Source: Nitrospirota bacterium (GTDB taxonomy: Bacteria > Nitrospirota > Thermodesulfovibrionia > Thermodesulfovibrionales > Dissulfurispiraceae). From it: DNA of 50,832 bases. This document shows positions 29,115 through 34,730 of this stretch, piece after piece (the stretch's first letter is position 1; every line of letters starts with the position of its first letter). The notes beneath the pieces are model-generated. The model searched no databases. It worked only from the letters and a program-made list of their open reading frames with translations, and was not told where the DNA came from. The stretch covers positions 1 to 50,832 of the forward strand of contig SCQE01000053.1 of the NCBI GenBank assembly GCA_004321915.1, given 5' to 3'. The position numbers and the translations under genes were made by a program.

Positions 29115-30992
29115 ATGGATCCCATAGACATATTCAAAAAAGAGTACCCGGAAAAATTTGCCTCTGAAGCCCTAATCTTCGGGCATATTCATGCAGGGAA
29201 CAGAATTTTCATAGGCACAGGCTGCGGCGAGCCCCAGTATCTCGTAAATGCCCTGATAAACCATGTCGGTTCGCACCCAAAGGCCTTTTTCGACACGGAA
29301 ATACTTCACGTCTGGACGCTCGGAGTCGCCCCTTACACCGACAAGAAATTCAAGCAAAACTTCAGACACAATTCGTTTTTTATAAGCAACAACAGCCGCG
29401 ACGCCATCAATACGGGGGCAGCCGATTACACACCGGTTTTTTTATCGGCAGTGCCGGAGCTGTTTCGCAGAAAAATCGTGCCCATAGATGTGGCCTTGAT
29501 CCAGACATCCATGCCCGACAAGCACGGTTATATGAGTCTCGGCATCAGTGTCGACATAACCAAAGCGGCGGCGGAAGCAGCATCGGTCGTCATTATACAG
29601 ATAAACGAAAACATGCCGCGAGTGCACGGTGAAACCTTCATACACGTCAGCGACGTTGACTTCATCGTCCAGCACAACGAACCGCTGATGGAATTCGAAT
29701 CCAAAGTCTCGGATGACATCGCCCAGAAAATAGGCAGGCACGTGGCCCGGATAATTCAGGACGGAGACACCATACAGGTGGGCTACGGCAAAATACCAAA
29801 CGCAATCCTATGTCATCTCGACAATAAAAAAAATCTCGGCGTTCATACGGAACTGCTGACCGACGGCATAGCGGAGCTTATGAAAAAAGGCGTTATCGAC
29901 AACAGCAGAAAAGAATTAAACAGAGGCAAATCGGTGGCCGCTTTCTGCATGGGTAAGCGCTCGACTTACGAATTCATCAATGACAATCCGAGTATAGAGT
30001 TCAGGCCCGTAAGCTACACGAACAACCCTCTCACAATTTCGAGAAACAGCAATATGATCGCCATCAACAGCGCCCTCAAGATAGACCTGACAGGACAGGC
30101 CACAGCAGAGTCTATCGGGAAACTGTTTTACAGCGGCATAGGCGGGCAGGCGGATTTTATGCGCGGCGCGATCCTGTCGGACGGAGGCAAAACAATACTG
30201 GCGCTTGAGTCGACCGCCGAAAACGGCGAAGTCTCCCGCATAGCGCCTTTGCTGAGCGAAGGGGAAGGCGTCACTCTGACGAGAGGAGACATTCATTATG
30301 TCATAACCGAATGGGGCGTCGCATATCTGCACGGTAAGAACGTGCGGGAAAGGGCCATGGACCTGATAGCGATAGCCCACCCCAAATTCAGGCAGGGGCT
30401 TATAGAAAAAGCGAAAGAGTTGGGATTGATTTACAGGGATCAGGCGTTCATACCCGGAGACCAAGGGGCCTATCCGGAAGAACTCGAGACCCATAAAGTC
30501 ACCAAATCGGGACTAAAGATATTCCTCAGACCGGTCAAGATCAGCGATGAGCCGCTTCTTAAAGATTTTTTCTACTCTCTTTCTTCGGACTCGATGTACA
30601 AAAGATTTGTATCTTCGAGAATCGATATGCCGCATGAGCGCCTGCAGCCTTTCGTTATAATCGACTATTCCAAAGAAATGGTGATACTCTCCGTAATAAA
30701 CGAAGGCGGCCGCGAGAAAATAACCGGAATGGGCCAATATCTGATCGACGAAAACTCGAATACCGCAGAGGTCGCCTTTGTGGTGCGCGATGATTACCGC
30801 AACCACGGTATCGGGGCCGAGATACTGGCTTACCTTACCCTACTTGCAAAGAAAAACGGGCTGCACGGTTTTACGGCCGAGCTCCTTTCGGACAACTTCT
30901 CTATGCTCCATGTGTTCGAAAAAGCGGGCTTTGATATTAACAAAAAGTGGGAAGAGGATATGTGCTCCCTAAAAATGTCGTTTAGGAGTTGA
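29115..30992 (+). CDS. Acetyl-CoA hydrolase/CoA-transferase fused to GNAT acetyltransferase
   Basis: Protein of 625 residues. Residues 1 to about 445 are a class I CoA-transferase of the acetyl-CoA hydrolase/4-hydroxybutyrate CoA-transferase family, with GTGCGEPQYL near the N-terminus, the catalytic glutamate in HTELLTDGIAEL, and FYSGIGGQADFMRGA. After a linker (about 445-475) comes a GNAT domain (about 475-625) with the acetyl-CoA loop RDDYRNHGIGAEIL. This architecture is known in databases. CoA transfer between acyl groups plus acetylation of a protein or small molecule is inferred; the acceptor is unknown. No clear Shine-Dalgarno; 27 bases after thyX. Confidence 0.9.
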   Translation: MDPIDIFKKEYPEKFASEALIFGHIHAGNRIFIGTGCGEPQYLVNALINHVGSHPKAFFDTEILHVWTLGVAPYTDKKFKQNFRHNSFFISNNSRDAINTGAADYTPVFLSAVPELFRRKIVPIDVALIQTSMPDKHGYMSLGISVDITKAAAEAASVVIIQINENMPRVHGETFIHVSDVDFIVQHNEPLMEFESKVSDDIAQKIGRHVARIIQDGDTIQVGYGKIPNAILCHLDNKKNLGVHTELLTDGIAELMKKGVIDNSRKELNRGKSVAAFCMGKRSTYEFINDNPSIEFRPVSYTNNPLTISRNSNMIAINSALKIDLTGQATAESIGKLFYSGIGGQADFMRGAILSDGGKTILALESTAENGEVSRIAPLLSEGEGVTLTRGDIHYVITEWGVAYLHGKNVRERAMDLIAIAHPKFRQGLIEKAKELGLIYRDQAFIPGDQGAYPEELETHKVTKSGLKIFLRPVKISDEPLLKDFFYSLSSDSMYKRFVSSRIDMPHERLQPFVIIDYSKEMVILSVINEGGREKITGMGQYLIDENSNTAEVAFVVRDDYRNHGIGAEILAYLTLLAKKNGLHGFTAELLSDNFSMLHVFEKAGFDINKKWEEDMCSLKMSFRS

Positions 30993-31050: not shown

Positions 31051-31632
31051 CTATTCGAGCGTCAATTTTGAAGCAGCCAGCTTAGTTTCAAACTCCCGGC
31101 TTAGAGACTCTATTTGTTTCAAGGCTTCGCCGCCGGATTGGTCTTGACCGGCCTTTTCGACCGCTGCGCTAAGTTTTTGCTGAATTAAAGCAAGGTGGGC
31201 AAGGTCTAATTTAAGGTTCTCGATAAGACAAAGTATGTTGTTAAACGCCCCGTTGACCTCCTTGAGCGACGTTGTCGGCAATTGAATATTCAAATCACCT
31301 TTACCGATCCGGAGCACTGCATCGTCAAAAGCCTTAAGCCTTTTGGATATCCTCCTGAAAATGAAACTCGTCAGCACATAGGATATAAGCAAAAGCGCAA
31401 CTGCGCCTATAGCAATGGATTTAAGCGCTATAGGAATAACTATGTCCAACGGAGATATCCTCGGAAGATGCGACCTGTAGAGGAAATTTTCGAGTTCATC
31501 GACGGAAAAGTACCATATGACAAGCGTTGTGAAAAGGGTTACAACAAGCCCTACCGTCAGAAACAGAAATGTGAACTTGCCTTGAAATTCTTTGTTTATA
31601 AAATAATTTTTCCTTTTGTATTTCTCAGACAT
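31051..31632 (-). CDS. Two-helix membrane protein with HAMP-like domain (B)
   Basis: Protein of 193 residues: basic N-terminus, helix 1 (about 19-41), a short periplasmic loop of about 25 residues, helix 2 (about 66-92), then FRRISKRLKAFDDAVLRIGKGDLNIQLP, a good HAMP linker, and a C-terminal coiled coil. There is no kinase, cyclase, chemotaxis or receiver output domain. It starts 17 bases after the heptahaem cytochrome gene on the same strand. It shares the layout of the protein encoded at 32410-32934. Role unknown; signal relay or a membrane anchor for the cytochrome are possible. Confidence 0.7.
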   Translation of the reverse strand: MSEKYKRKNYFINKEFQGKFTFLFLTVGLVVTLFTTLVIWYFSVDELENFLYRSHLPRISPLDIVIPIALKSIAIGAVALLLISYVLTSFIFRRISKRLKAFDDAVLRIGKGDLNIQLPTTSLKEVNGAFNNILCLIENLKLDLAHLALIQQKLSAAVEKAGQDQSGGEALKQIESLSREFETKLAASKLTLE

Positions 31633-31649
31633 CTTACCTCCCCCCTATT

Positions 31650-32402
31650 TCACAAGTTGTGGCATGCAAAGCAGAGCGCGCTGCCGGTCATGGGCAAGGC
31701 AAGCTTAAATTTATCACCCGCAAAAACGCTGTGACAACTGCCGCAGCCGACCTTTCCGTTATAAAATTTTATAGCAGGATTGACCGAATATATGGGATAA
31801 AGCTTGCCTCTCTTCCGATACGCATCCATATAGTCCACACCGATGGGGTGAGACACGCCGTTGCCGTGGTTCCATACGCCGGAACCCATATTTGAGCTCA
31901 CGTCAGCCAGAGAACCGAGCGCTCCGTCATGGCATCCTAGGCATTCTTTGGACGTCCTGTCAATGTCTCCTGCCTTGTCGGTAACTGCAAAGCTCATCTT
32001 TGTAACGTCCATGCGCTCCCTTGTATGAAGGGACTCCGGCATTATGCTATGGCTGGTATTCAGGCCTTTGTGGCAGTTTACACAAAACATCTTTCCCGGT
32101 TTTTGCCCCTTAAGCAGAAATTCGCCATGGCCGTGGACATCGTGGCAGGTCGCGCAAGTCATCCTGCCTGCCCAATCGAGTTGAAACCCGGCAGGAGGCT
32201 TCATTGAAGGCTTTATGCCTGAGGGGTGCGAGGGACCCGTTTGAGGATGGCAGGGGGTACACAGAAAATCTATCTCTCTCACGAAATGTTTATTGTCGGG
32301 CGGGGAGGCCATATGGCAGGTGTCGCATCTACCGTCAAAATTATGCGCTGTCTTCTTTGCCGCCGGAATAAGCGGCAGCAAAACAATAACAGCCGAAACC
32401 AT
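31650..32402 (-). CDS. Heptahaem c-type cytochrome
   Basis: Exported multihaem cytochrome with seven CxxCH motifs: CDTCH, CTPCH, CATCH, CVNCH, CLGCH, CGSCH and CFACH, in about 250 residues, with paired-CxxCH spacing (CATCHDVHGHG…FCVNCHKG). Many extra histidines can supply the second ligands. A hydrophobic segment (VSAVIVLLPLIPAA) is the signal or anchor. The frame is open upstream, but ATG 32402, eight bases after the preceding stop, is the first plausible start; it gives an N-terminus poor in positive charge, so a rare upstream start (ATT at about 32423) is not excluded. It is sandwiched between two HAMP-like genes. Confidence 0.85.
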   Translation of the reverse strand: MVSAVIVLLPLIPAAKKTAHNFDGRCDTCHMASPPDNKHFVREIDFLCTPCHPQTGPSHPSGIKPSMKPPAGFQLDWAGRMTCATCHDVHGHGEFLLKGQKPGKMFCVNCHKGLNTSHSIMPESLHTRERMDVTKMSFAVTDKAGDIDRTSKECLGCHDGALGSLADVSSNMGSGVWNHGNGVSHPIGVDYMDAYRKRGKLYPIYSVNPAIKFYNGKVGCGSCHSVFAGDKFKLALPMTGSALCFACHNL

Positions 32403-32409
32403 CGCGACT

Positions 32410-32934
32410 CTAAAAGCTGATTTTATTGATGGCCTTCTCAATTTTATCCGCCTTCGTCTTAAGTTCAGCATGCGAGACGGCGCCGATCCGGGCTTCCTCA
32501 AATTCCCGGTACGCCGCAGAAATGGCATCCAGCCTGCTTTCAAGGTCTCTGATCATCGTGTTTAAGGCGTCCGCGGTCTCATGGAGTTGATCGCTGTTCC
32601 TGAACCTCAAGGGCCGCGCTTTTCTTTTTTCGGCCATATCGTTGATAAATTTCTGCATGCGATAGATCGGCCCGGCAATTTTATGAGAGGCGAGGATGGC
32701 TATCACGGTAACCGTAAAAGGAATCGTCAACGAATCTATCACAAAAGCCGCAATCAGAAGCAACGGCAAAAACTTGTTGGCATCGGAAAAAGATGAAAGA
32801 GTGCCGCCGTAGCTGATTATTGTCGTTTTTGGCAGGCCCAGAAAAAGCAGCAGCAGGATGACAAGAAGTCCGAACGAAACTATGCATATATACTTCAAAA
32901 AAAATTTTGTGCGAAACTTCGATTCTATTATCAT
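32410..32934 (-). CDS. Two-helix membrane protein with HAMP-like domain (A)
   Basis: Protein of 174 residues: short basic N-terminus, helix 1 (about 12-34), periplasmic loop of about 20 residues, helix 2 (about 56-82), then ASHKIAGPIYRMQKFINDM, a HAMP-type linker seen in methyl-accepting and sensor proteins, and a terminal coiled coil. No output domain. It is the first gene of a three-gene minus-strand cassette (A, heptahaem cytochrome, B), with an eight-base gap to the cytochrome. Only a weak Shine-Dalgarno (AAAGG) precedes the ATG. Confidence 0.7.
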   Translation of the reverse strand: MIIESKFRTKFFLKYICIVSFGLLVILLLLFLGLPKTTIISYGGTLSSFSDANKFLPLLLIAAFVIDSLTIPFTVTVIAILASHKIAGPIYRMQKFINDMAEKRKARPLRFRNSDQLHETADALNTMIRDLESRLDAISAAYREFEEARIGAVSHAELKTKADKIEKAINKISF

Positions 32935-33054: not shown

Positions 33055-33145
33055 AATGAATTCGACTTTAACATTAAAGCTGCAAGACTACATTTCTTGC
33101 ACCCGGACAAGCCAATAATTTTTCAAATACAGGAAAGAGGTTTTT

Positions 33146-33367
33146 ATGATAACAAAAACTTTGGTGAAATCGTTCTACAACAGCCTGTTGGTGACCTGCT
33201 ATGAACAAGACGGCATAAAATATGTCACCAACCAGCACGGCAATTACGATGTTTATGAGTCCGAATACATACGCGGCAACAAGACAAAAACCGTTGATGC
33301 AGGTTCGGAAGAGATTCAGAGCATTATCCGCGAGTTTAAAAAGCAAGGCGGCGAAAACAATAAATAA
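33146..33367 (+). CDS. Small protein of unknown function
   Basis: A 73-residue cytosolic-looking protein (MITKTLVKSFYNSLLVTCYE…), with mixed beta-like N-terminal half and a charged C-terminal helix (SEEIQSIIREFKKQGG). I do not recognise it. It is supported by AGAGG five bases before the ATG, a predicted promoter and coding-like codon use. It is flanked by the HAMP/haem cassette (divergent) and by tRNA-Val, whose CCA end abuts its TAA. Its function is open. Confidence 0.6.
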   Translation: MITKTLVKSFYNSLLVTCYEQDGIKYVTNQHGNYDVYESEYIRGNKTKTVDAGSEEIQSIIREFKKQGGENNK

Positions 33368-33442
33368 TGGTAGGCGATGCTGGGATTGAACCAGCGACCT
33401 CTCCCGTGTGAAGGGAGCGCTCTCCCACTGAGCTAATCGCCC
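33368..33442 (-). tRNA. tRNA-Val (anticodon CAC)
   Basis: Full cloverleaf on the minus strand: acceptor GGGCGAT / ATCGCCT (with a G-U first pair), D arm TAGCTCAGTGGGAGAGC, anticodon stem CTCCC / GGGAG around loop TTCACAC (anticodon CAC, reading GUG), T arm GCTGG-TTCAATC-CCAGC, and an encoded CCA (33368-33370). It follows the diguanylate cyclase gene by 49 bases on the same strand and could be part of its transcript or have its own promoter. Confidence 0.95.
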
Positions 33443-33491: not shown

Positions 33492-34730
33492 TTAATCTTC
33501 TGAACGCTCAACCCTGTCCCTGCCGGAATGTTTTGCTTTGTACAATCCATGGTCGGCCCTGCGTATGATTTTTTCTATCGTCTCATCGGCCGCCTGATAA
33601 TTCGAAACTCCCGCGCTTATTGTTACAGGAATGCCGAGAATCGGAAACTCCTTGACTTTGTCCCTTACCCTTTCTGCAAGCTGCATGGTGCTTTCAGCGC
33701 CTGCATCAGGCATCACAATCAAGAATTCCTCTCCCCCGTAACGCCCTAAAACATCATAGGCCCTTATAGAGGATTTCAGTATCTTAGAAATTTCGACGAT
33801 AACTTTGTCGCCTATCTGATGGCCGAAGGTATCGTTAATCTTCTTAAAATAGTCTATATCGAGAAGTATGCAGCCGAGTTCGCTGCTGTTTCTTTTTGTG
33901 CGCTCAAGCTCTTCTTCAAACCTTTCAAGCAGATGCCGCCTGTTAAAAATATCGGTCAGCCCGTCTGTTATAGCCATACGTTCAATCTCGACGCGGGCAT
34001 CAGAAACCCTCTGTATAAGCCTTGAGGTAAATATGTAGATCAGTCCCAACAGCAGTCCTGTGGTCGTCACCGCAAAAACCAGTATAAGGACCGTATTTTC
34101 GGCCAATTTTTTCTGCAGACTGTCTACATCAAAAGAAACGCTGATCCCCCCCCTTATCTGCCCTTTTTTATACCCCTGTTTAGCATGGCATTGCAGGCAG
34201 CTCTCTTCCACATAAAGCGGCGCCATATACCTGAAATAAGGCTTTTCGTTCAATACGCTGACCTTGAAAGCCTCCTCTTTCCCGTCCTCAAACATCTGTA
34301 AAGCGGCTGCTTCAAACTCATCGGGCTTATTGTTGGGATTTAGCGGCCTAAGGCTCGTTATCCTGAAAACAAAAGCGCCGCCCGTCTTTGCCAGTTCTGA
34401 TATTTCACGTGTCATAAGGGCCGGATTTTTTTTAGTGAAAACCCTGCCGTCGGAGGCGGTAATATCAGGGTCTTCAAGATAGGGGTTGGACTGCACACCT
34501 TCTTTTTTCTCGACATAGACCCCGTTAAAGGATGCGTTCCATTTGCGCGCCAGTACTATGCTGCTGAAGAGAGCGCGCGCCTGAGCAAGGCTGCTGTCGA
34601 AGATAAGCTGTCTCGTTCTTATAGACATGCCTAAGAATATGCCCGACAAAACCAGAGCGATGGCCAAACTTACGGAAATTACAAAGGTTTTGTAGATTTT
34701 AGTTTCTCTTAACAACGGCATATCATTCAT
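33492..34730 (-). CDS. Haem-sensor diguanylate cyclase (Tll0287-like + GGDEF)
   Basis: Membrane signalling enzyme of 412 residues making cyclic di-GMP. Helix 1 (about 14-36), a periplasmic Tll0287-like (DUF3365) domain with a single c-haem motif CLQCH (about residue 178), helix 2 (about 212-235), a short signalling helix, then a GGDEF domain (about 250-410) with active-site GGEEF and an I-site RAYD five residues before it, so product inhibition is expected. Haem suggests redox or gas sensing. It lies next to the haem cassette and 49 bases upstream of tRNA-Val. ATG 34730 chosen; ATG at residue 4 is possible. Confidence 0.92.
   Translation of the reverse strand: MNDMPLLRETKIYKTFVISVSLAIALVLSGIFLGMSIRTRQLIFDSSLAQARALFSSIVLARKWNASFNGVYVEKKEGVQSNPYLEDPDITASDGRVFTKKNPALMTREISELAKTGGAFVFRITSLRPLNPNNKPDEFEAAALQMFEDGKEEAFKVSVLNEKPYFRYMAPLYVEESCLQCHAKQGYKKGQIRGGISVSFDVDSLQKKLAENTVLILVFAVTTTGLLLGLIYIFTSRLIQRVSDARVEIERMAITDGLTDIFNRRHLLERFEEELERTKRNSSELGCILLDIDYFKKINDTFGHQIGDKVIVEISKILKSSIRAYDVLGRYGGEEFLIVMPDAGAESTMQLAERVRDKVKEFPILGIPVTISAGVSNYQAADETIEKIIRRADHGLYKAKHSGRDRVERSED

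Follow-up and report, generated by a model that had tools for sequence, protein, structure and literature searches.

A cassette of three genes, in which a heptahaem c-type cytochrome (CYT7) is encoded between two HAMP-type two-helix membrane proteins (A and B), recurs in a fixed order across many bacterial phyla, and we give about an even chance to the view that it encodes an inner-membrane-tethered periplasmic electron-transfer module in which the HAMP pair anchors CYT7. The copy from which the analysis started lies in a stretch of 50,832 nucleotides of Nitrospirota DNA, the whole of which is referred to as the window (Table 1).

Table 1 Features of the A-CYT7-B cassette and of its surroundings in the window
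Feature	Position	Strand	Description
Acetyl-CoA hydrolase/transferase-like protein	29115-30992	plus	C-terminus resembles a GNAT acetyltransferase domain, by sequence only
Gene B	31051-31632	minus	193 aa; two predicted TM helices, HAMP-type segment, coiled coil
CYT7	31650-32441	minus	Heptahaem c-type cytochrome; N-terminal hydrophobic helix; likely TTG start
Gene A	32410-32934	minus	174 aa; two predicted TM helices, HAMP-type segment, short terminal coiled coil
90-aa ORF	33074-33346	minus	Covered by the plus-strand 73-aa ORF
73-aa ORF	33146-33367	plus	73-aa homologue in the sister genome; outside the cassette
tRNA-Val (cac)	33368-33442	minus	Abuts the 73-aa ORF; between cassette and cyclase
Diguanylate cyclase	33492-34730	minus	GGDEF domain and Tll0287-like c-haem sensor domain; outside the cassette

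An earlier note on this DNA had described three minus-strand genes separated by gaps of 8 and 17 bases, the middle one with seven CxxCH motifs. All three open reading frames were found at the coordinates it gave, the seven motifs are present, and the 17-base gap between CYT7 and B stands; the 8-base gap does not, as the distance from A is 7 bases when CYT7 is read from its first ATG at 32402, and a reading from the TTG at 32441 yields a protein of 263 aa whose gene overlaps A by 32 nt. CYT7 of the sister genome also has a TTG start with the identical 32-nt overlap, and the TTG is likely the better start. In comparison with the sister genome, dN/dS is 0.087 for A, 0.059 for CYT7 and 0.119 for B, and all three are genes under purifying selection. 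A scan for promoters and terminators gave hits which were not clearly above those in shuffled sequence.

The haem-binding motifs of CYT7 are CDTCH, CTPCH, CATCH, CVNCH, CLGCH, CGSCH and CFACH. In an alignment of 79 sequences none of the seven CxxCH histidines varies, and exactly seven further histidines are conserved at 94-100%, which in the window protein are H20, H59, H90, H118, H126, H179 and H185 (numbered from the ATG). Since seven distal histidines is the number required for seven bis-histidine haems, CYT7 is predicted to be an electron carrier in which every haem is bis-histidine ligated, and not a protein with a gas-binding or catalytic haem. Its N-terminus forms a hydrophobic helix that stops a few residues ahead of the first haem, and a lipobox is absent from this region in all 80 loci retained from the cross-phylum scan described below; CYT7 is thus probably anchored in the membrane via this helix. 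The protein exceeds the Pfam cut-offs of PF09699 (Paired_CXXCH; 54.8 bits, cut-off 20.6), PF14537 and PF14522 and the NCBIfam cut-off of TIGR01905, and it stays below every NCBIfam cut-off for the named cytochromes DmsE (34.8 vs 192.2), GSU2203, NrfB, NrfH (22.8 vs 134.2) and HmcA. The PDB matches of the CYT7 profile are exclusively multihaem cytochromes. The AlphaFold model of CYT7 is poor (pLDDT 54) and provides no basis for judging a complex.

For the outer two genes, the description as two-helix HAMP-type proteins devoid of an output domain holds for the families, whereas in the window's own sequences the HAMP signal is weak or unmatched: B scores 16.9 bits against Pfam HAMP, where the cut-off is 25, and for A Pfam yields no HAMP match. 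Of 20 B-family members, 12 match PF00672 at E<=0.1 (best 2e-6) and four match HAMP_2 (PF18947), and in the PDB the profiles of both families find solved chemoreceptors as well as the transducer of sensory rhodopsin II, with matches over TM2 and the HAMP region. Both families also show the HAMP landmarks expected after a TM helix, i.e. the AS1 proline, the connector glycine and the AS2 acidic residue, although the position of the AS1 proline is variable in the B family. The HAMP assignment, weak from the window's A and B by themselves, is therefore clear at the level of the family profiles. The best-conserved columns of A are HAMP landmarks (G88, P89, R112, D115 and N125), and Tyr42 in its periplasmic loop is invariant (73 of 73); B conserves an N-terminal cytoplasmic R-x-x-Y...Q motif and the HAMP connector (G112, D113, L114) and, less strictly, His55 in its loop. 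Neither A nor B showed an output domain in searches of Pfam and NCBIfam, nor can they be assigned to the chemoreceptors or the sensor kinases; in about 70 genomes both are uniformly ~190 aa long and lack such a domain. The membrane segments of A and B contain no conserved residue pattern suggesting the binding of haem b or a quinone. The predicted structure of B has helices as expected, and a Foldseek search with it returned nothing at E below 1, which is uninformative for a helical protein.

CYT7 relatives occur in about one fifth of 100 genomes of the window's order, nearly always in the order A-CYT7-B and with the genes adjacent or overlapping in nearly all copies, and at the level of the window's phylum 59 of 396 genomes carry CYT7, as do 41 of 170 genera. 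When species genomes were scanned across phyla, 209 CYT7 relatives emerged, of which the best 80 were retained. An automatic profile search detected both A and B at 68 of these best 80 loci, and six more were recognized by eye (L120, L124, L145, L146, L159 and L174), giving 74 loci with A-CYT7-B. The cassette is interrupted by contig ends at L114 and L170; CYT7 stands without A and B at L109, L144 and L173, and A alone is missing at L140. Thalassotalea sp. G2M2-11 carries a divergent copy of the module (L172). The 80 loci are labelled as eight or more phyla, with 53 in Nitrospirota and the others in Thermodesulfobacteriota, Pseudomonadota, Omnitrophota, Aminicenantota, Acidobacteriota, Fibrobacterota, Nitrospinota and 'Deltaproteobacteria' bins; as most of the 80 are metagenome bins, phyla represented by a single bin could be binning errors. 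The gene trio, for which a check of conservation across genomes had been suggested, thus reaches far beyond close strains, and its recurrence in the window's order, in its phylum and in other phyla rules out a cassette limited to such strains.

The pairwise distances of A, B and CYT7 correlate with r values of 0.83-0.88, compared to permutation maxima of 0.15-0.28. In a joint tree of A and B, 33 A sequences form one side of a branch, while the 33 B sequences require just two changes. According to these comparisons, A and B are two ancient clades of one HAMP-only two-helix family that go back to one duplication, and the separate clades together with the correlated distances point to an ancient duplication followed by joint inheritance. 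The idea of a conserved A-cytochrome-B unit with two distinct partners, co-inherited with the cytochrome, is borne out by this analysis, which also suggests, without proof, an A:B heteromer. Profile comparison places A, B and a third family, T, in one superfamily. Family T is found in a three-gene row composed of a SurA_N-like protein, T and an exported protein of ~177 aa, the latter with no family match where scanned (L044, L048, L049, L051, L053, L059, L060, L066 and L094); this row is a second widespread HAMP-only cassette and is likewise undescribed. Another HAMP-cytochrome pairing is present at L058, L068 and L091, where a pentahaem cytochrome is directly followed by a HAMP-only two-helix protein.

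The genes surrounding the cassette in relatives point to work in electron transfer rather than to a dedicated signalling operon. Another cytochrome with at least four haems lies within 5 kb at 43 of the 80 loci and at one of 20 control stretches taken from module-bearing genomes (Fisher p 4e-5), a comparison in which the control is small and neither set is phylogenetically independent. Within the same distance, a cytochrome with at least ten haems is encoded at 27 of the best 80 of the 209 loci, and a small tetrahaem cytochrome follows immediately downstream of B at 18 of the 80. Some loci, with barrel-like, NHL lipoprotein and 11-13-haem genes, are laid out like extracellular electron-transfer clusters. 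Two recurrent layouts can be distinguished. In several Nitrospirota and 'Deltaproteobacteria' bins, a barrel-like protein, an NHL lipoprotein, an 11-haem cytochrome and an exported protein of 250-280 aa precede A, CYT7 and B, with one element missing in some; in Desulfobulbia, a 13-haem cytochrome, a 5-haem lipoprotein and a 5- or 7-haem cytochrome precede A, CYT7, B and a tetrahaem cytochrome. Neither Pfam nor NCBIfam has a match for the barrel-like proteins, which were called as barrels from their sequence pattern only. Several observations count against an electron-transfer module: within 5 kb, multihaem neighbours are absent from 37 of the 80 loci, the window cassette itself has no adjoining electron-transfer cluster, and the lack of a haem b or quinone pattern in A and B leaves an exchange of electrons between CYT7 and the quinone pool unexplained.

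The cassette of the window is isolated, with an acetyl-CoA hydrolase-like gene on one side and, on the other, a short ORF on the opposite strand together with a tRNA gene. Porin-cytochrome conduit genes are absent beside it; barrel-like and large multihaem genes occur at several relatives' loci. Multihaem clusters of the window's genome, which are candidates for electron-transfer clusters, are located on other contigs (C121, locus L200, and C131, locus L201); among their products are NHL lipoproteins, cytochromes with 13, 10 and 8 haems, one barrel-like protein and also a stand-alone tetrahaem cytochrome of 110 aa that resembles the one found after B in other genomes. A redox-signalling locus had been considered on account of a nearby diguanylate cyclase, whose Tll0287-like sensor belongs to a family with signalling members recently reported to be Cache domains that bind c-haem and have the properties of NO sensors (PMC12889525). 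This link did not hold up. The tRNA gene and the opposite-strand ORF intervene between cassette and cyclase, and the minus-strand ORF previously taken as the next gene is probably spurious; a Tll0287-like sensor domain was found near the module in none of the best 80 of the 209 relatives, and in the sister genome ATP synthase genes occupy the place of the cyclase. Membership of the cassette in a haem-sensing c-di-GMP operon was rejected, as the linkage is not conserved.

In the proposed electron-transfer module, CYT7 would be situated at the periplasmic face of the inner membrane, secured by its N-terminal helix, and would relay periplasmic electrons to or from the larger multihaem and outer-membrane cytochromes that serve extracellular electron transfer. 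Anchoring and organising CYT7 would be the task of A and B, assembled in the inner membrane into a hetero-oligomeric bundle of helices; given the retained HAMP landmarks, this bundle may shift its conformation with the state of the cytochrome. We infer the A:B:CYT7 complex, the anchoring of CYT7, the direction of electron flow and the conformational relay. The constraint on the HAMP landmarks of A and B exceeds the need of a bare anchor, and it is mainly for this reason that signalling is kept as a possibility.

The alternative closest to this proposal is a redox-signal relay, which we consider possible but clearly the weaker candidate. CYT7 would then act as a sensor whose oxidation state determines how it contacts the short loops of A and B in the periplasm; through the HAMP bundle, the signal would reach a soluble cytoplasmic partner, in the way in which sensory rhodopsin II drives a two-helix transducer. 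Such a role would fit the prominence of G88, P89, R112, D115 and Tyr42 in A, the retention of the connector Gly112 and Leu114 and of the loop His55 in B, and the chemoreceptors and the HtrII transducer as best PDB profile matches of both. PilZ proteins, moreover, flank the module at L152, L168, L175 and L178, at L179 on the Geoalkalibacter subterraneus plasmid pGSUB1 CYT7 lies between PilZ proteins without A or B, and in one clade a response-regulator/sensor gene pair adjoins the module. On the other hand, PilZ proteins are encoded within 5 kb at just about seven of the 80 loci, only the copy in the window has the cyclase as a neighbour, A and B have no output domain and no constant cytoplasmic partner gene, and seven bis-histidine haems exceed what a sensor needs. 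A more far-reaching version, which we regard as unlikely, combines both functions in a new transmembrane redox relay: CYT7 would carry respiratory electrons and also drive an A:B bundle through which soluble partners in the cytoplasm are informed of electron flow in the periplasm or outside the cell, or, in reverse, c-di-GMP would act via PilZ proteins to gate the electron flow through CYT7.

Less probable still is a function in assembly or export, with A and B serving as a membrane platform on which exported cytochromes are folded, matured or passed on, e.g. to a secretion system. The related family T does lie between a SurA_N-like and another exported protein in many relatives, PPIase genes are present in some clusters, and type II secretion-like genes (GspE/GspF-type ATPase and platform, pseudopilin-like) follow B at six related Nitrospirota loci (L112, L119, L129, L145, L151 and L169). 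These secretion genes are, however, confined to one clade, A and B are always partnered by this one cytochrome family, whose seven haems do not vary, and neither A nor B has a chaperone feature. The chemoreceptor-like TM2 and HAMP region, finally, might be taken as a sign that the outer two genes encode truncated or frameshifted chemoreceptors in a cassette that arose as a local accident. We attach practically no weight to this explanation, which is excluded by the constant lengths and gene order across about 70 genomes, by purifying selection and by the existence of two ancient clades.

Accounts of multihaem electron-transfer systems usually centre on cytochromes, porins and quinol oxidases. 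In the A-CYT7-B cassette, a HAMP signal-relay fold is paired with one cytochrome, and this pairing is kept across many phyla, including groups dominant in iron and sulfur cycling in the subsurface. If A and B only anchor CYT7, they would represent a new way of tethering periplasmic cytochromes to the inner membrane; if they act as a relay, they would couple electron flow physically and directly to the behaviour of the cell. Under either reading the fixed gene order serves as a searchable marker and defines a testable complex.

The A-CYT7-B combination is unnamed in Pfam and NCBIfam, and the open literature searched, which excluded most subscription journals, holds no description of HAMP-only proteins with a multihaem cytochrome; papers on Gallionellaceae and Geobacter name HAMP in ordinary sensor proteins only. 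Like A and B, the transducer HtrII (PDB 2f95 and relatives) has two TM helices, a short periplasmic loop, a HAMP domain and an input from a separate partner. HtrII, however, continues into a chemotaxis signalling domain and has a rhodopsin as partner, whereas A and B end about 50 residues past the HAMP segment, are paired and flank a cytochrome gene. The Archaeoglobus orphan HAMP receptor Af1503, a weak PDB profile match to A and B, has HAMP as its sole cytoplasmic domain and possesses an extracellular domain of its own; it is not known to have a cytochrome partner. Porin-cytochrome conduits such as OetABI (PMC10553843), in the description of which the term HAMP is absent from the main text, may be comparable to the clusters of some relatives, in which barrel-like, NHL lipoprotein and large multihaem genes accompany the module; no conduit genes adjoin the window cassette. 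CYT7, in turn, resembles the Paired-CXXCH and cytochrome c3-type multihaem cytochromes, whose cut-offs it exceeds, and differs from them in its fixed plan of seven haems and seven distal histidines, in its HAMP partners and in belonging to no named family of the libraries searched. The parts are thus of known kinds, and their combination appears to be undescribed.
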